A DNA stretch of 64,000 nt, taken from assembly GCA_958430865.1 (NCBI GenBank), contig CAUDNR010004400.1, positions 74,702 through 138,701 on the forward strand, in the 5' to 3' direction. A program made the position numbers and the translations under genes. Shown one piece after another: positions 5,950 through 31,374 of this stretch (its first letter is position 1; each line of letters opens with the position of its first letter). Below the pieces are notes generated by a model that saw only the letters and a program-made list of their open reading frames with translations, was not told the DNA's origin and searched no databases. This stretch comes from Entrophospora sp. SA101 (lineage: Eukaryota; Glomeromycota; Glomeromycetes; Entrophosporales; Entrophosporaceae).

Positions 5950-6105
5950 TTAATTCGAATTATTCGTTCTATTCGAATTATTCGTTCTATTCGAATTATT
6001 CGTTCTATTCGAATTATTTGTTCTATTCGTATTATTCTTTTTATTTGAATTATTCGTTTGATTTGAATTATTCGTTTTATTCGTTTATTCGAATAAAACT
6101 TTTAA
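5950..6105. repeat. tandem repeat, ~18-bp unit ATTCGAATTATTCGTTCT
   Basis: Head-to-tail copies of an 18-bp unit (ATTCGAATTATTCGTTCT and variants), decaying to the right. A short run of GATCAAGTCATTTGCTAAGC-like repeats follows at about 6260-6355. Minisatellite type; no function suggested. Confidence 0.75.
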
Positions 6106-6441: not shown

Positions 6442-6608
6442 AAGTAAATAGAAATCAGCTTTAATCTTAATTCCAATAAATAACTGCATACAATTTGAAA
6501 AACAAAATTCGCTTTCATTTTTTTTATAAATACTCTTACAATAATCCCATACAATTTGAAAATCAAGAAAAAGTGAAAACTTGACAAAAATTATCTGAAT
6601 AAATCAAA

Positions 6609-8366
6609 ATGAATTTCAATATTTCTCTTCTCTTTTTGATTATCTTTGCTGTTGTAGCTTTAGCAAGCCCAATTCATAACAATAATTTGGTGAAGCGAGG
6701 TATTTCATTTATTATTATATTTACTATTACAATAATATATTGTTTTTGAAAAAATACTAACTGTTGGCTTTCATTTTATTTTAAATAATAAATAGGCCCG
6801 TAAGTATTTTTGCACTATTATTACACTCAATATCATTGTTTTGAAAAAATATTAATTATTGGTTTTCATTTTATTCTAAATAATAAATAGTGGTGTAAGT
6901 ATTTTTGTACTATTATTACAGTCAATATCATTGTTTTTGAAAACATATTAACTGTTGGTTTTCATTTTATTTTTAAATAATAAATAGTGTGTGAGTGTTT
7001 TTATCATTTCATTATTAATATCATTGATTTTTTGAAAATATTAACTGTTGATTTTCATTTTATCTTAAATAATGAATAGAATGTGAGTATTCTCATCATT
7101 TCACTATTATTACAGTCAATAACATTGTTTTTGAAAAAATATTAACTGTTTGATTTTTGCTTTATCTTAAATAATAAATATAGGAAGTAAGTATTTCCAT
7201 CATTTTACTATTATTACAATCAATATCATTGTTTTTGAAAAATATTAACTGTTAATTTTCATTTTATTTTAAATAATAAATAGCCCGTAAGTATTTTTAT
7301 CATTTCACAGTCAATATCATTGTTTTTGAAAACATATTAACTGTTGATTTTCGTTTTATCTTAAATAATAATAAATAGAGTGTAAGTATTCTCATCATTT
7401 ACTATTGTGACAGTCAATATCATTGTTTTTGAAAACATATTAACTGTTAATTTTTGTTTTATTTTAAATAATAAATAGTGTGTGGGTATTTTTATCATTT
7501 CATTATTATTACAGTCAATATCATTGTTTTTGAAAAAATACTAACTGTTGATTTTCATTTTATTTTAAATAATGGGTAGTGGGTAAGTATTTTCATCATT
7601 TCACTATTGTTACAGTCAATATCATTGTTTTTGAAAACATACTAACTGTTGATTTTCATTTTATTTTAAATAATAAATAGCAAGTAAGTATTCTCATCAT
7701 TTTACTATTATTACACTCAATATCATTGTTTTTGAAAACATACTAACTGTTGATTTTTGTAAATAATGGGTAGCGGGTAAGTATTTTTATCATTTCATTA
7801 TTATTACAGTCAATATCATTGTTTTTGAAAAAATACTAACTGTTGATTTTCATTGTATTTTAAATAATAAATAGCCTGTAAGTATTATTATCATTTCACT
7901 ATTGTTACAGTCAATATCATTGTTTTTGAAAACATATTAACTGTTGATTTTCATTTTATTTTAAATAATGGGTAGCCTGTAAGTATTTTCATCATTTCAC
8001 TATTGTTAAAGTCAATATCATTGTTTTGAAAAAATACTAACTGTTGATTTTCATTTTATTTTAAATAATGGGTAGCGGGTAAGTATTCTCATCATTTCAC
8101 TATTGTTACAGTCAATATCATTGTTTTTGAAAACATACTAACTGTTGATTTTGTTTTATCTTAAATAATGGGTAGTGGGTAAGTATTTTTATTGTTTGCT
8201 ATTATTACAGTTGAAAAATATTAACTGTTTGGTTTTCATTTTATTTTAAATAATGAATACAGGATGTAAGTATTCTCATCATTTCACTATTGTTACCATT
8301 GTTTTTGTAAACATATTAACTGTTGGTTGATTTTCATTTTATTTTAAATAGAAATAGAGTAAATAA
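6609..8366 (+). CDS. secreted Kex2-type peptide precursor made of single-codon micro-exons
   Basis: Exon 1 (6609-6699) encodes the signal peptide MNFNISLLFLIIFAVVALA, the propeptide SPIHNNNLVKR with a Kex2-type KR, and the first base of Gly. Micro-exons bounded by AG and GTAAGT/GTGAGT/GTGGGT follow: 6796-6799 GCCC, 6891-6894 TGGT, 6988-6990 TGT, 7080-7082 AAT, 7184-7186 GAA, 7284-7286 CCC, 7379-7381 AGT, 7479-7481 TGT, 7580-7582 TGG, 7681-7683 CAA, 7774-7776 CGG, 7875-7877 CCT, 7976-7978 CCT, 8076-8078 CGG, 8176-8178 TGG, 8263-8265 GAT. The last exon starts at 8352 (K, stop 8355-8357) or 8358 (SK, stop 8364-8366). Phases agree: 91+4+4 = 33 codons, then whole codons, so the mature part reads GPGCNEPSCWQRPPRWD plus K or SK. 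Precursor about 48-49 residues, two Cys four residues apart. Exons and peptide are inferred from splice signals; role unknown, possibly a secreted signal. Confidence 0.72.
6700..8357 (+). repeat. 17-unit tandem intron array (84-101 nt units) carrying the micro-exons
   Basis: Each unit has a donor GTAAGTATT-like end, a TTACAGTCAATATCATTG core, TTTTTGAAAA, a branch site TA(C/T)TAACTGTT, a TTTTCATTTTATTTTAAATAA tract and an AATAAATAG or AATGGGTAG acceptor. TA(C/T)TAAC is present in 16 of 17 introns; exact TACTAAC in 7; the second intron has a decayed form. Intron lengths in order: 96, 91, 93, 89, 101, 97, 92, 97, 98, 98, 90, 98, 98, 97, 97, 84, 86 (or 92). Introns are near-identical whereas the 3-4 nt between them differ. 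One intron counted (7583-7680) is 20% GC, but the micro-exons total 29 G/C in 50 bases. The array arose by tandem duplication of intron plus micro-exon. Confidence 0.9.
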
Positions 8367-8857
8367 AAGCTGTATTTGCTCTTTGGCTCTTTGATAACTT
8401 CATTTATCTCTTTAACTTTTTTTACTTTCATCTTATATTTATCTTTATTTTTTATTGTTGTTTATAATTTTTACGTTGCTTAAGATTCATGCAAACTATA
8501 ATGTTTATATTATAACATAGGAAGCGAGAATAAATATAAACAGTTCATACACAATAAGTGTTTATTATAATTTGAAAAGATTTATATGTGTCAATTTAAA
8601 TGGGAATGAAAATGAATAAAGTTACATCCAGTGTGCGGGCGCGCGTGTTACATTAAGGGTGGCCAATAATCTATTATGGTGCATGTCCATCTATAAATGT
8701 CAATAGTAATACATATCTAAACTCGATAATTCGGACATTTATTCATATTATAAAGTACTTTAAATAATTGATTGCTGCATCCGACTTATCGAATTTAGAT
8801 GTAGATTTTTCCAATATTTTTTATATTATGCAAAGTGCAAAGAAAATTTTGTACATA
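8367..8857. other. intergenic / 3' flank of the micro-exon gene
   Basis: Probably includes the 3' UTR and polyadenylation region of the micro-exon gene. A short GC-rich GTGCGGGCGCGCGTG stretch at about 8633 is the only notable feature. Confidence 0.4.
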
Positions 8858-10247: not shown

Positions 10248-12554
10248 TTAAAGATTATCAGGACGAACCCATTCACTTTTAAGTCGTTCTCTCAAATCTT
10301 TTCTCAAAATTTTGCCGGAAGCGCTTTTAGGTATCTTATCAATAATGTAGACACCACCACGTAGTCGCATATGGTGAGCAACTTTTTCAGCCACGTAATC
10401 TTGAATGGATTTTTTAATTTGTTGGTGATCACTGGCGGCTGGATTTACTAGTTCGACATAAGCAACTGGTAATTCTGTAGCGTCTTGTTCTGAATATATG
10501 CCAACTACACCTGCATCGGAAATTATAGGGTTGGAAAGTAGAACTGATTCAAGTTCTGCAGGTGCAACTTGATGGCCCTAAAAAAATTTGAGGTGATGAT
10601 GAAAGGTGATGGTGATGAATAAGGGGATGAGGAATCAATTGATTAAAATTTATTTTAATTAACAAGTAAAAAAAAGAAAGATTGCAGACCTTATACTTGA
10701 TAAGTTCTTTTACACGATCAACCAAGAAAACATTCCCTTTTTACAATAATAATAATAAACATGTCAATTAAAAATAAAAGAAAATATTTTACATAACATT
10801 ATATGATAAATAACAATTTACCATTTTCATCAATATAACCAAGATCTCCAGTATGAAAAAATCCATCTTTATCCATACATTCTTTAGTGGCTTTTTCATT
10901 ATTAAGATAACCCTATTTTTTTGGAGGCTTTAGTCAAAGTAAATTAATTAACAATATTCATATATATATATATATGTATATGATTGGTACCTTCATGATG
11001 TTTGGACCACGAGCACATATTTCACCTTCTTCATTAACTCCAAGTTCTATCAAAAAAATTAATTATTTAGTTTTGAAGAATTAAATTAAATTATTGTTAT
11101 TACTTCTTATTACCTTTTCCATTTTCATCAATAAATTTTATCTCAACATTTGCTATAATAATTCCAGATGACCCTAAAAAAGAAAATATTATTATTTATT
11201 TCTTTTTTTCTGATGAAATAATTCAAAACATAATTTTTTATATTACCAATTACAACATCATCAGTTTTACCCAATGTAAGCACTGGTGTAGTTTCAGTAA
11301 GTCCATAACCTTGCTTAAGAGGTATTTTCTTGAATTTGTCGTTGAACATCTTACTCAACTCTTTGCTCAATGGAGCAGCACCGCTTACAATAAATTTTAA
11401 ACTTGATAAATCATATTTGTCAACAACTGGGTTTTTAACCAGTTGAAGCAAAATCGGCGGAACTATATATCCAAGATTTATTTTATAATCTTGTATTGTT
11501 TGACAAAATGAATTTATATCAAATTTTGATAAAAGTATTGCTGACGCTCCCTATTATTTATAATAAAAAAGTTTCATGAGAAGGAAGTTTTTTTAAAGAA
11601 ACAAAATATTTTATTGAAAACTTACACTATAAGCTACTTGATGCAGAGTAATGTTCAATGCATATATATGAAAAAGTGGCTGTAATGAAATAAGATAAAA
11701 TATCATCATCAAACTCATAATCACGATTATGATAAATCATGAATCACAATCATCGTAATTATTATTATCCAATCTCACCAATATTCCCAAGAAGACAAGA
11801 TCAGGAGTGAATTTCTCGAAATGATATACTTGTTCAAGATTAGCAATCATATTATAATGTGTGGTCTCAACACCTTTTTGTCTGCCAGTTGTACCAGAAC
11901 TATAACACAAATAGGCAGTAGTTGATTTGACTTTTTCTTCGGTTGTATAATGAATAATTGCTGAATCATCATCATCCTTGTATAGACTGGTGAATGGTTT
12001 AATGCCATTTTCAAGGTCTTCCTTTTCATCAAATACAAAGATCCTGGAAGTTGGTATTTTTACATTTTTTGCAGCTTCCAATACAGTAGGTAATAGTAAT
12101 GGATGTGCAATGATGACTGATGCTCTGGAGTCGGATAGTTGATGTGTTAATTCATGAGCTTTATAACCAGAATTAGCTAATGTAACAATTCCACCTGAAA
12201 AAAAAAAATTTTGCAAAAAATTGAAAATTTTTTTGTGGACAATAAATAAACTAGTTATTGATTAATTAATTAAATACCAGATGCAATGACTCCAAATAAC
12301 GCAATAGGATAATGGATGTGATTCAGGGAAACAATTGCCAAAACTTCTCCAGGTTTAAATCCAATTGATTTTAATCCACTGGCAACCTTTCGAGTATAAC
12401 TTTTAAATTCACCAAAAGTGATTTTTTCGTTAGTCAACCCATCAATGAAAATTGGTTTAGTATCAGGAATGGAATTAGGATTACTGGTCACATGATGATA
12501 AACATCAACATATGGGATTTTTAGATCAGGGAGTTTAGATTTAAATATAACCAT
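10248..12554 (-). CDS. 4-coumarate-CoA-ligase-like acyl-CoA synthetase, copy B (complete)
   Basis: Nine exons by GT..AG borders: 12278-12554, 11779-12194, 11626-11679, 11247-11550, 11114-11173, 10991-11046, 10822-10912, 10690-10736, 10248-10577. They join in frame to 544 residues, the normal size of 4CL-like ligases. Motifs in order: P-loop [29 protein letters not shown]5 [27 protein letters not shown], the ATP/ribose-binding [16 protein letters not shown], hinge [21 protein letters not shown], and the A10 lysine in [15 protein letters not shown]. All catalytic elements are present. The C-terminus PDNL is not a canonical peroxisomal SKL. It activates a carboxylate as acyl-AMP, then acyl-CoA. 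Close paralogue of copy A, with conserved intron sequence pointing to a fairly recent tandem duplication. Confidence 0.93.
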
Positions 12555-12916: not shown

Positions 12917-14821
12917 TTAATACGCAGACGTCTCATTAACGGAATCTAAAGATTCAATTGAAGAAGATGAAAGAGTTCTTTGGTGATGTCGATTATGTTG
13001 ATGTAGATGAATATTGATTGTATTTTGTGATAAAGATGATGATGTTGTTGTTGGAGCATGTAATAAATCATTACCATAGCTATTTTTGTAACTATTATTA
13101 ATTTTGTTAATGTCAACATTATTATTATTGTTATTAATGTTATAATTGATCAGTGTAGTTGAACTAGATCTATTATGAGATGATTTATTGATTATTGGAG
13201 GATGTAATATGGTAATCATTGAAGGCGATGAAGAAGAAGAATAGTGGTGTTGTTGTTGTTGTGATTGTTGTGATTTAATTGATTCTTTTAGTTGACTTTT
13301 TCGTAGTTTTTGTTGTTTTAATCGAGATTTTTGTTGTTTGTCAAGTAGGAAACTACGTACAAACCATTTCATAAATTTACTCTTACTTAGGATTGGTGAT
13401 GATGATTTTTGTAGTGGTGTTATTGGGGGTAATGTTAATGATGAATTTCTAAAAGTTCTATTAAGGTTGGTGTTAGGTGGTGCAATTGAAATTTCAGTTA
13501 ATATTGGTGATGATTGGGGTTGAATTTTATTATTATTAAAATTATTATTAATGTTGTTGTTAATGTTGTCATTATTATTAGTGATATTACCAATACTATT
13601 AAAAGATGCAGCTGTCGTTGCAGTTGCTGGTGTATTTGACGGAAACCTAAATTCTGATGGTGACAATGGTGGACTATTTAAAGAGACAGTTGCTTTGCTA
13701 TTATCGTCGTCGAACGGCTTCACAAAGCCATAACTATCCACCAAAACTCTTTTATACCTTCTAAAACCATTATGTAAAGCTGGATCGAATACGAATGCAA
13801 AAAAATTAAAAATTCCAGGAGAACATGTTCCAATAATTGACCAAAAAATTATAGCCTGAGGCTCGGTTCGATTTTTTTTGTGCACTGAAGTATAAATAAG
13901 TTCCACCAAGATACCGCTTACATTGAGCAAAGGTATTAACGCATAAAGAGAAATACGACTAACCAATTTTAACAATAATAATTTTTTGTGTCTGGCTTTT
14001 ACTGATAAGGTTTTATTGCTTTTTGAAGATTGTATGACTTCTGCCAATTGACGATGTTCAAAGATCAATTTACACACCACAATCATCAAAACCGTTGTAC
14101 AATAAATCATTGATATTGTTATTGGAATGAAAAATGTTAAAATTGACCACCATCTTGTTGCCTCGGAATAACCTTCTCTGTATAAACAATCAATGACATC
14201 AATGTCAAAGCCAAATCTATTATAGACTAGCGGTGGTATGTTTATAATTAATGCTGTTAGAAACGCTACCGGAACATACCATCTATCTGAAAATCTTGAA
14301 ACTTTTCTTCTGTGAAGAAAAACAACCTGCAATCACCAAGAAAATAAATTTTTTTGCTATTAATAATTTGTAATAATACTAAAAAATCAATATTTACGCT
14401 AACAATAATTCTAATTACCTGTAGATTGAATGCAATCATAACAGTTAGAAATAAATATAACTGAGGGAAAAAAACTCATTCCAAATCCAATAGCAGTGCA
14501 TAATGTACCATCTACAGGAATCCATAGCGTGTACGCCAACACAGTTCCACCATTTAACATATCCACAAAGGAAATCATTGCAGTCAACCTCAATGATACA
14601 CGATCGACCAACTTTCTATCATAAAGCCACATAATGGTCATGATAAATAATACCAAGAAACCACATGAAATACTTATAATGCTTAGATAAAAATTTAATT
14701 TGTCGTAAGTTGCTTCTAATCGAAAATGTTCAATGTCCTGTGTAAACTCTGGATTCACACCGTAATCTACGTAAGGGGCATTTGGATCAGTGTTTGGGTC
14801 ATAACTAGTATCATTACTCAT
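12917..14821 (-). CDS. seven-transmembrane G-protein-coupled receptor, frame broken by one base
   Basis: Two exons: 14419-14821 and 12917-14326 (intron 92 nt). Seven hydrophobic spans are readable: NFYLSIISISCGFLVLFIM, LTAMISFVDMLNGGTVLAYT, the QLYLFLTVMIAFNLQ span, VPVAFLTALIINIPPLVY, WSILTFFIPITISMIYCTTV, ISLYALIPLLNVSGILVELI and IIFWSIIGTCSPGIFNFFAF. Cys in GTLCTA and DCLYRE could form the usual extracellular disulfide. A long Asn/Gln/Ser-rich tail of about 250 residues follows. The topology fits fungal cAMP-receptor/Git3-like GPCRs for nutrient or signal sensing. The frame slips inside TM3 at a 7-base A run (14468-14474 on the plus strand); one base fewer would give a continuous protein of about 603 residues. 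This may be an assembly error or a real lesion. Confidence 0.85.
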
Positions 14822-17800
14822 TATGAATAATAAATATGAGTAACTAAATTATTTCTTCTTTTTCTTCTTTTCATAAACAAAAAAAATAAATATAATTGAT
14901 ATTATTTTACGATTATATTTATATGATGACAAAATAATGATTATGGTAATAAAAATTTAAAGTAGAATTGAAGTGATTTGACCTGCAATAAGGTGAAGAA
15001 AGAAGAAAGGGGAATCGGTGGGAAAAAAAGAATGTGTTGTATTTATAGTAAAATTTTTTTTGCAATTACTTTTTCTTTTTAATTTTATTAAAGCTTGTTT
15101 ACTAAAAAAGAAAAAAGAAAAAGGTTGCGAAAAAAAAAACAAAAAACCAAAAAATAAAAAAAAAATTTTGATGCGGTTTTTTTTCATATTATAATGGTTT
15201 TTATTTATACATCTTGTTATATTATTCTAGTTCACACATTGTTGATTTATACAAATAACAATTGAAAAATAATATTAATATATTTATTTAAATTGACCTA
15301 AATAATCGACATTTATGTATTATATTAAATCTATCAAACTTTTTTGGCAAACAATGAGGGTTCTTTCTTTTACCGATTTGGAATCCACAGTTAGAAGTTA
15401 CACAAACTTAAAAAAACCTCATTTTTTGGTGACATTGTTTGGATCAATATTACAATATATATTGTATGCGGTTTAAAAATATAATATGTTCTCATACAAA
15501 TGAGTTTTTTTTATCGACAACAGCAAAACTAAAAAAATAGACACACATTCAAAATTAAATGCATAAAATAATCATTTGTCCTAATTTATTAATTAGCCGA
15601 TAATGCGCAAATTGTTATTTTATTTATTTAAAACTATTACTTTATTTGGGAATCGTTAGTTCAATGGTGCATTGATATGATAAAAAAGAGAGATATAATG
15701 AAAAAATTCTATCCTACCAATCAAGTTGTACTGTAACCAGCAACAACACAACAGATGCTACAGATAGGTAGAATGAAAAAGTAAAATAAGGCAATTAGAA
15801 TGAAGTAAAAGTCGTGTTGTCATTTAGATGAGATAATGCAAATCATAATGTTATTACCCGGGTGTTTAAGAAATTAATCAAAATTCCCTGTTATAAGGTG
15901 TGAAATGATCGTAATAGTGATTGGTTTACGGGATATGATCGGTTTACGAATGTTTCAATATTATCCGGTTATAACATTTACAATATGCAATTTTTCGTAA
16001 AACAATGTTAATATTTGTGATATCTTATTAAAAAAACCTTGGCATTCACAGTATCAATTATGCTATTCATAGTTAGTCTTTTTTTATCATTTAATTTTAA
16101 ATTAATATTACAAAAATCGTCAACCTTATCAGATAAATCGAACCGCCCAATTAAGTTTATAATGATGTGAAACTTTAACAAAGAAAATTCGTTTGCCTAT
16201 GTTCAATGAACAATAGCAATATTAAGTGTTAACACAACAATGATACGAACAAAAAACGGTTATTTATATCATTATTCTTCATTTTACTCATCAAAAAATA
16301 AATAAATAAATAATTTATAGAGTGGTTTCTATTATTTTCCTAGAAAAGAACTTAGAAAGTCAAAACTAGGTATCAATTGGTGGAAAATTAATTAGTTTAA
16401 ATAAGAATCAAAAAGAAAAATATTTCGTGGAAAGACTTTTTGGTTAATTACTGCGGGCTAATATACGTGTGTATCACGAAATCCTATCTATGGCGTTGAG
16501 GATTATGTGTGTATATATATATATATAAGGACATGGATTTGATGTATAAAACAATAAATTTTAATATATATCATCGCATATTGATTTGAACCATTTTTCT
16601 TAGGTTAATCCAAAATGGTGGATAGTTGCAATTCGTATGGTGTATAGTGTTATTAGATTAGAAATCCAATTGCATCGAGAAAGGGAAGTGGGAATTTAAT
16701 ATAGGCATTGTAAATGAATCATCTAATGAATGTACCTGAAAACAACATTCATATTAATATAGAGAATACAGATATTGAAAATGATTTAATTTATACTGGA
16801 AACAATGATGCCTTAAATAAAGTAAAATATAGGCATCAATGTAATCCATTATGACTTGTCAATTTAAAAGAACAAAAAAGACCAATCACAAATCACATAT
16901 TTGTATAAAATAAAGAAAATAATAAAAAAATACTTCTGCCGAATCTTATTTGCCTAGAAAAGTTAGAGCTAACCAACTATATGATCAATCTGTTTTTTAT
17001 TATATGTATTTATGTTTTGTTAAAAAAAAAAATCCGTATATTTGTCATCGGAATTTCCAGTACTAGTACTAATCGTTAAAATGTTGACTAAAGGTAGTTT
17101 TTTACCAAGGGTTATTTTGATGATTTAGTCAAAGTATAAATCCTAGACGGAAGTAAAATCTTATTTTTTTTCCTTTATCTAATCTAATATTTAATTTGAC
17201 CTAGATTGCTTTACATCCCATCAATTCTAGATAAAAAGGTAATTGCCATTGTAATTAGAGTGTGTATAGCATATGAACTATATCTGAATACATCATATGA
17301 CCATCCCTATCGATGAAAGCATATTGAGCATACTTAGAATTAAGCAGAGCAAGTTCTTTAAAAAATGTTTTGTTTGAATATGAGAGATCGGAGAAAGTTA
17401 GTTAATCATGATGGATTGGAAATTTAATGTAAAATGTACTTTTTAATTAAAAAAAAAAACATACTAGACGAAATAAAATGAAGAATCTTTATATATTTAT
17501 TTCAACCAATTTGTTGACTTCATTGTTCAAAATATGCTTTTGAGCGTCAAATTTATTTGTTCAATATTTCGTTGTTCATTCATACATACTAGATCCTGTT
17601 TTTTGTTACGATTGGTTTATTTTGATTCAAAATTAAGTAAAACAACAACATCATCCTGATAAATGGCATTATTAATAAATGGCCATTGCATTATATCACT
17701 CAAGTCTCGAGGGTCACATACACCTTAGCCTTTTTCTTGCGAAATTGATGGCTAGAATAAAGTATTTATAAAATATTTGTCAAATAATTAATAATTATAA

Positions 17801-30585: not shown

Positions 30586-31374
30586 ATGCCTTACCCATCC
30601 AAGCACAAAAGTCAATTAAAGGATGCGAGAACACAAATTGGAAAAAAGAGTATGTTCTAGAATTAAATTACATAAATATCTTGTAAATAAAATTTTAATA
30701 TCATTTATGTTATTGAAAGGTGATGATGAATTATTGTTCAATGATGTTATTGTAGCTTCTGATGCTTTGTTAGTAAATAGAATGAATTTGAACCCAGGTG
30801 GTATACAGCCTAAAATGAGAACAATAACAATGAGAGATGGCACCATTCAGGAATGGTGTTTGAAGATGGCACTCCTAAAGGTATGAGAGTAGTTTTAGAA
30901 GAAAGAAATTTGTGGAAAGAAGGATTAAAAAGATTTGCCATGATTGTAAAAATAATATTAATGTTCAACAAAGAAATGATTGTTATGCATCAAAGATACT
31001 TTATTTGGAGCATGATTTTGCTTCCCAAAAATCTCTACTTACTGAAATAATTGAGAATGCTGGTCACAAGGTAATTTTTTATCCAAAATTTCATTGTGAA
31101 TTGAATTTTATTGAAATGTTTTGGGGAGCAGCCAAACAATACACCAGACAAAACTGTAACTACTCATTCAAAGGTCTTAAGAAAACAATATCAGAAGCAT
31201 TGGAATCTGTTCTTTTATTGAAAATAAGAAAATTTGCTAGAAAAACACAAATATATATGTGCTTATAGAATAGGTTTAACAGGCAAACAAGCTTTGTTTG
31301 TTGTAAAAAAGTATAAACCTCATAGATGTGTGCCTGTTTCAGTTACAGATGAATTGGATATCATGAACATTTAA
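30586..31374 (+). pseudogene. DDE-type transposase remnant
   Basis: Starts as MPYPSKHKSQLKDARTQI, then breaks frame. Later pieces read MVFEDGTPKGMRVVLEERN, KICHDCKNNIN, then LEHDFASQKSLLTEIIENAGH, YPKFHCELNFIEMFWGAAK and finally KPHRCVPVSVTDELDIMNI with the stop at 31372. The YPKFHCELN-IE-WG segment is typical of a DDE transposase family very common in mycorrhizal fungi. Several frameshifts and stops make it non-functional. Confidence 0.75.

Follow-up and report, generated by a model that had tools for sequence, protein, structure and literature searches.

The gene at positions 6609 to 8366 of the window, by which we mean the whole stretch of 64,000 nucleotides analysed here, very probably belongs to a large family of genes for secreted peptides, whose mature product is spelled out with one exon for each amino acid. 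A preliminary description of this locus had arrived at the same architecture, but understated the case: there is a gene family, its arrays reach 36 single-codon exons (the longest run of 3-nt exons in the splice-site parse, in locus L067), and some exons are only 1 nt long.

Parsing of the window gene gives an exon 1 of 91 nt, 16 micro-exons (two of 4 nt followed by 14 of 3 nt, in the order of Table 1) and a last exon carrying the stop, and thereby reproduces the coordinates, the first exon and the series of micro-exons described before. All 16 micro-exons stand between an upstream AG and a downstream GTRRGT, as had been stated, and the donor of intron 1 is GTATTT. TAYTAAC was counted in 16 of the 17 introns, the same number as before; the exception is intron 2 with TATTAAT, a weaker branch site. 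The branch-to-acceptor distance is 27-38 nt, and 34-38 nt in 16 of the 17 introns when the best site is counted. The consensus columns of acceptor, branch site and donor are also seen across the family, and in this respect the micro-exons are of the spliceosomal kind. As 91 + 4 + 4 nt add up to 99 nt, the 3-nt exons of the window are in phase 0, and none of the 14 is a stop, so that the frame closes on whole codons as first reported.

The predicted product is MNFNISLLFLIIFAVVALASPIHNNNLVKR followed by GPGCNEPSCWQRPPRWD, and the core of the predicted mature peptide is GCNEPSCWQRPPRWD, with or without a leading GP and a trailing (S)K. The last acceptor is ambiguous, since AG ends at 8351, 8357 or 8359, which leads to K and stop, SK and stop or directly to the stop. 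An immediate stop in the last exon, as originally claimed, therefore holds in the sense that the stop lies at the start of this exon or at most two codons from it, with three acceptors to choose from. The trailing (S)K is uncertain because the last exon of the relatives L069 and L072 begins with TAA.

Table 1. Features of the single-codon-exon gene in the window, with positions counted from the first letter of the window.
Feature	Position	Strand	Basis
Candidate TATA box TATAAATA	6525..6532	+	sequence; 84 nt upstream of ATG
Exon 1, 91 nt: predicted signal peptide, short pro-region, KR, first base of next codon	6609..6699	+	parse; exon-1 family
Tandem array of ~100-nt units, one intron and one micro-exon per unit	6725..8296	+	Tandem Repeats Finder, periods 101, 194, 295
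Exon 2, GCCC, 4 nt; Gly completed, Pro begun	6796..6799	+	splice-site parse
Exon 3, TGGT, 4 nt; Pro completed, then Gly; phase 0 restored	6891..6894	+	splice-site parse
Single-codon exon TGT (Cys)	6988..6990	+	parse
Single-codon exon AAT (Asn)	7080..7082	+	parse
Single-codon exon GAA (Glu)	7184..7186	+	parse
Single-codon exon CCC (Pro)	7284..7286	+	parse
Single-codon exon AGT (Ser); internal alternative acceptor would leave 1 nt	7379..7381	+	parse
Single-codon exon TGT (Cys)	7479..7481	+	parse
Single-codon exon TGG (Trp)	7580..7582	+	parse
Single-codon exon CAA (Gln)	7681..7683	+	parse
Single-codon exon CGG (Arg)	7774..7776	+	parse
Single-codon exon CCT (Pro)	7875..7877	+	parse
Single-codon exon CCT (Pro)	7976..7978	+	parse
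Single-codon exon CGG (Arg)	8076..8078	+	parse
Single-codon exon TGG (Trp)	8176..8178	+	parse
Single-codon exon GAT (Asp)	8263..8265	+	parse
Last exon: stop at start or at most 2 codons in, then 3' UTR	8352..8620; start 8352, 8358 or 8360	+	parse; candidate AATAAA 8615-8620

To the window gene belongs a family spread over the genome (101.3 Mb), presumably that of a Rhizophagus-like arbuscular mycorrhizal fungus. With the database protein P0002 (see below) as query, a protein search located exon 1 at 57 places (E ≤ 10), of which 43 have E ≤ 0.001 and 55 are without internal stop; all 57 candidates were scored. Neighbouring pairs of 3-nt exons, searched for as a pattern with consensus flanks, have 291 matches in the genome versus 0 for the reversed control pattern. 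With 301-nt DNA queries taken from the array and from the exon-1 region, at least 396 and at least 584 genome matches were obtained, respectively. In view of the 57 exon-1 places and of the adjacent-exon matches against the empty control, chance or assembly error was rejected as an explanation.

Thirty stretches (20 + 6 + 3 + 1) were examined as loci. The splice-site parse, a dynamic-programming procedure that uses no coding information and mildly favours 3-nt exons in its scoring, was applied to 26 loci and the window, with loosened donor and acceptor cut-offs, as stricter ones missed many loci. With it, a closed frame was obtained in only 17 of the 27 loci. The ten others (L052, L054, L061, L062, L063, L064, L065, L066, L068 and L070) have terminal exons that are longer with an internal stop or were mis-split, lack a recognisable array, or have a weakened site or an exon 1 that is out of frame, and L062, L065, L066, L068 and L075 look decayed. 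Many loci of the family are recent duplicates and so not independent. Exons 2 and 3 have sizes of 4+4, 4+1, 1+1 or 4+7 nt, exon 2 being of 1 or 4 nt and exon 3 of 1, 4 or 7 nt, and the sum of exons 1, 2 and 3 is divisible by 3 in 22 of the 24 loci with three parsed exons (exceptions L065 and L066). Of 26 loci tested, 20 have a TATAAATR motif in the 150 nt upstream.

In-frame exons 1 have a hydrophobic N-terminus by eye, and the products are putatively secreted. For 25 of the 27 parsed loci (L065 and L066 were left out) the residues after the signal region of exon 1 were listed: the dibasic Kex2-type site KR is present in 22, and MR, SR and ER in the remaining three. XP follows the Kex2-type site in 15 of these 25 loci, several of which are duplicates. 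The peptides themselves are highly unlike one another, as illustrated by L056 (SVNCEADCNFPGCYPGCDELCPQASLKFLAEL), L060 (IPVFRRRPYDYDWDYDDCEQC), L067 (NPGVCWACGGCISCCCAECCTKEELAALRAALREKFLAEL), L069 (VPVPPGGVHEEGGEISGG) and L072 (DPYPFGKK).

A stop-free run of 14 codons, as in the window, has a chance of about 0.38 at the rate of 0.067 stop per codon given by intron composition. As this is not rare, the window alone is unfit as proof, and the proof rests in the family. Because the scoring of the splice-site parse favours 3-nt exons mildly, the length and stop statistics were redone on 29 loci with a local rule that has neither coding information nor a preference for 3 nt; L048, a copy of the window, and L062, in which no array was found, were dropped before this count. 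The local rule yielded 497 micro-exons, 353 of them unique with their flanks (305 of 3 nt, 25 of 4 nt and 8 of 1 nt), and intron lengths that vary over 34 values (mean 95.8, sd 7.6). L076 and L077 were excluded from the codon count because exon 1 places their 3-nt exons in another phase. In the 296 unique 3-nt exons counted, window included, 35 codons are used and no stop occurs, whereas the positional composition of these exons predicts 10.7 TAA or TGA (P 2e-5) and intron composition predicts 19.5. After stricter removal of duplicates 213 3-nt exons were left, still without a stop, and the splice-site parse version likewise has none in 233 unique 3-nt exons.

The reading frame was tested on runs of 3-nt exons from 17 hand-chosen representative loci with duplicated units kept; some of these loci still share parts (L053/L056 and L065/L066). 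Stops were found in 0 of 321 triplets in frame, compared with 12 of 301 and 66 of 301 in the two shifted frames. In addition, the unique 3-nt exons have a G+C content of 0.40 versus 0.20 in their flanks. No 3-nt exon among the 296 ends in AG, and Lys, Glu and Gln are encoded by AAA, GAA and CAA in 50 of 50 cases; in eight ORFs of the window 9-21% of the codons for these amino acids end in AG, and their absence from the 3-nt exons has a P of 8e-5. The lack of AAG, GAG and CAG is expected if a second AG beside the acceptor is harmful.

To locate the variation, units within the same array were compared pairwise in 17 loci, the representatives of the frame test with the same partial overlap. In 1457 of 3426 pairs, no more than 6 of the 40 flanking bases differ. 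Exon positions 1, 2 and 3 differ in 0.63, 0.66 and 0.46 of these close-flank pairs, while 36 of the 40 flanking positions differ in at most 0.13 and four in 0.32-0.39; within a repeat that is otherwise conserved, the codon varies most. Whole units are gained and lost as well: L060 has one CGG unit more than L057-L059, L049-L051 differ by absent units, and in L067 four units, with identical 75-nt flanks, have been duplicated to give the AALR repeat. L061 and L065, L053 and L074, and L056 and L067 have blocks of 5-10 codons in common, which points to exchange between loci. Identical 75-nt flanks are shared by nine within-locus pairs, of which four, all in L067, differ in the codon. These four represent a single comparison (GCT versus CGT) repeated through the four-unit duplication, and are thin evidence for a targeted codon change.

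The window peptide as query had no protein match in the protein collection. A profile search of the same collection retrieved P0001 and P0002 only. In P0001 (654-base contig) exon 1 runs on into the family intron 1, as expected of unspliced DNA. P0002 (1024-base contig) has a near-identical exon 1, which continues from the predicted donor with RLPTVWCWDEQWAQWYDCRDPYVSE and without read-through into the intron. This tail of 25 residues contains Trp, Asp and Cys, and its composition gives a log ratio of 30.4 nats in favour of codon-exons, for which the mean is 29.3 (sd 7.8); none of 20000 simulated intron-like 25-mers reached the score of P0002. Three codon-trio patterns of P0002 had no match in this genome. 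Therefore P0002 is, as far as tested, no exact transcript of a locus present here, and its source may be another strain or species, or an intron-poor relative. Judged from its sequence, P0002 is likeliest to be the spliced transcript of a relative, and even an intron-poor relative as source would still confirm the kind of protein. As the protein of a relative, P0002 strongly suggests splicing of single-codon exons there, and for the window gene their inclusion in mRNA is predicted. The proposal that the mature peptide is spelled by single-codon exons is thus supported by the family, by the frame, stop and codon tests and by P0002, with the (S)K at its end left in doubt.

In the mechanism that we propose, exon 1 would provide the signal peptide, a short pro-region and the Kex2-type KR site, and exons 2 and 3 (often 4 + 4 nt) would contribute the first residues, often an X-Pro of the STE13-type-trimmed kind. 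Nearly each later residue would come from a 3-nt exon within a ~100-nt unit that has a strong, near-identical intron (GTRRGT ... TAYTAAC ... AATAG), and the last exon would supply the stop. The introns are probably recognised by intron definition and taken out one by one; the strong donors, the TAYTAAC-type branch site and, in the window, the distance from branch site to acceptor fit such a mode, and for the 1-nt exon of Arabidopsis the authors, in the account consulted, likewise prefer intron definition, with the introns removed in steps (PMC4674806). Duplication, loss and exchange of units would add, remove and swap residues with the frame intact. The processed products may act as variable signal or effector peptides.

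Other explanations have to be weighed against this one. The array could be a non-coding minisatellite within one long intron, across which exon 1 is spliced directly to the last exon, the AG...GT sites being relics or decoys. The array is indeed a tandem repeat, and such small exons are thought, according to the discussion in PMC4674806, to hinder spliceosome binding. However, a non-coding array does not account for 296 unique 3-nt exons without a stop and the strong frame signal, for an exact 3-nt length beside introns of variable length, for hypervariable codons in conserved flanks or for the tail of P0002, and we consider this explanation highly improbable. The broken appearance of other members suggests that the family was once active and that the window copy is a relic without expression, but this is unlikely for a gene that is intact in exon 1, all 17 introns, frame, TATA-like box and stop. 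Moreover, a second copy on contig C774 is 100% identical to the window gene in both 301-nt queries and is parsed identically.

If the peptide is encoded by the array, the exons might still be included combinatorially, so that any donor can be joined to any later acceptor and every gene gives rise to a library of variant peptides. Splice sites are near-identical along the arrays, and the 3-nt exons are symmetric and can be skipped without loss of frame. Against this, exons 2 and 3 often have 4 nt, so that skipping either of them breaks the frame, and a preference for the full-length product is suggested by orderly peptides, for example TKEELAALRAALREKFLAEL of L067, which by eye looks amphipathic; combinatorial inclusion is therefore possible, but doubtful. 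The contrast between near-saturated codon positions and conserved flanks could also result from a mutation process aimed at the 3-nt exon, instead of selection on codons with homogenisation of introns, and the L067 comparison in the identical-flank pairs would agree with this. But the use of codons, with no stops and no AG ends, shows selection, and diversifying selection together with repeat homogenisation suffices, which makes a targeted process very unlikely.

Coming back to the peptide genes with one residue per exon, we tentatively suggest that they serve a residue-by-residue diversification. Each amino acid would be an exon cassette, and editing of genomic units combined with frame-neutral skipping would generate a library, with up to 2^14 in-frame peptides for the window gene, for host- or self-recognition. 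Were this so, a symbiotic fungus would gain a large and fast-changing set of recognition peptides. If the architecture itself is true, the spliceosome removes 17 introns in the window gene and 39 in L067 (as parsed) from almost exonless transcripts, and does so at dozens of places in a single genome. How isolated exons of 1 or 3 nt are spliced is already puzzling, and the arrays would challenge ideas on a minimal exon. They would also allow intron definition and the order and fidelity of splicing to be tested in a natural system, and would offer a route for peptide evolution by insertion, deletion and shuffling of whole residues. Standard annotation and read mapping are often blind to exons of such size, and a whole class of secreted peptides would go unnoticed by them in a fungus of an ecologically central kind.

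The preliminary description knew of no tandem series of single-codon exons, and none was reported either among the matches listed by a literature search, which did not extend to preprints and most subscription papers. The nearest known systems found are schistosome micro-exon genes, aphid bicycle genes and isolated tiny exons, and none of them, in the parts consulted, has a peptide encoded with one exon per residue. For the schistosome micro-exon genes (MEGs), about 80% of the coding sequence in symmetric exons of 6-36 bp is taken as the criterion. As far as the consulted part of PMC5825161 goes, they have secreted or exposed products, most of their coding sequence in short symmetric exons, fast turnover and variation in splicing; the genes described here share short symmetric exons and fast turnover, and may share secretion and variable splicing. 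However, MEG exons have 6-36 bp, whereas the exons here are of one codon, belong to homologous tandem units and are found in a fungus. In the window gene, 50 of the 141 coding nt before the last exon are in micro-exons, with sizes of 3-4 nt, which differs from the MEG-type 80% in 6-36 bp symmetric exons. Aphid bicycle genes are comparable as putative effectors that evolve fast and have numerous unusually small exons sharing one phase, but nearly all their internal exons are given as phase 2 in the sections consulted (PMC9168663), whereas the 3-nt exons here are in phase 0 with introns in a tandem array.

Isolated exons of 1 or 3 nt, as reported for Arabidopsis APC11 (PMC4674806), Fusarium CYP621A (PMC12940212) and Drosophila homothorax (PMC7392893), show that such splicing is possible; in these accounts, as consulted, they are single exons in ordinary genes, unlike a series that spells a peptide. 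Precursors of KEPs and alpha-pheromones have a signal peptide, KR and then an XP or XA dipeptide, and Rhizophagus irregularis is reported to be rich in Kex2-processed repeat proteins (both from the consulted part of PMC6339444). The putative signal peptide and the KR of the present family, with XP in part of the loci, agree with these processing signals, those of R. irregularis included. KEPs, as described there, consist of repeated peptide motifs between Kex2 sites, whereas the window gene has one non-repeated peptide and one site, the repetition being in the introns; the other parsed peptides are alike in this by eye. What sets the arrangement apart is that gene structure here has the codon as its unit; on a stricter reading it could be an extreme variant of micro-exon genes.

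Some arrays contain unusual parts. In the 3' array parts of L049, L054, L056 and L063 there are exonless units AG|GTAAGT or AG|GCAAGT, some with GC donors. Such units at the ends of some arrays resemble zero-nucleotide recursive splice sites, which are described, in the portion of the source consulted, for very long introns (PMC13149111), whereas the units here are tandem and of ~100 nt, some with GC donors. At the 3' end of L053 a stretch with many GGTATATACC repeats breaks up the array and may be an inserted element. L077 (C200:30780-33000) and L076 (C997:17950-18656) form a remote subfamily, in which exon 1 ends differently, the donor GTAAGT follows directly after basic residues and the 3-nt exons are apparently in another phase. 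L077 has an ambiguous second exon and contains a TGA triplet that, in the phase implied by exon 1, does not form a codon. Contig C65 carries many arrays, and C139, C167 and C487, which are absent from the exon-1 places, have adjacent pairs of 3-nt exons; other signal peptides may use the same single-codon architecture on these four contigs.

In the surroundings of the peptide gene, about eight copies of the 18-nt repeat ATTCGAATTATTCGTTCT are located at 5953-6091, ~500 nt upstream (Tandem Repeats Finder). Two pieces of AMP-binding enzymes on the minus strand flank the gene at 784-1260 and 11737-12261 and are alike by eye, which suggests a local duplication. About 4 kb downstream, at 12917-14848 on the minus strand, pieces resembling a multi-pass membrane receptor were recognised by eye, with a Pfam match to the STE3 pheromone receptor at E 0.08, below the cut-off. 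A weak match to the DDE_3 transposase, also below the Pfam cut-off, lies at 30879-31268 on the plus strand.
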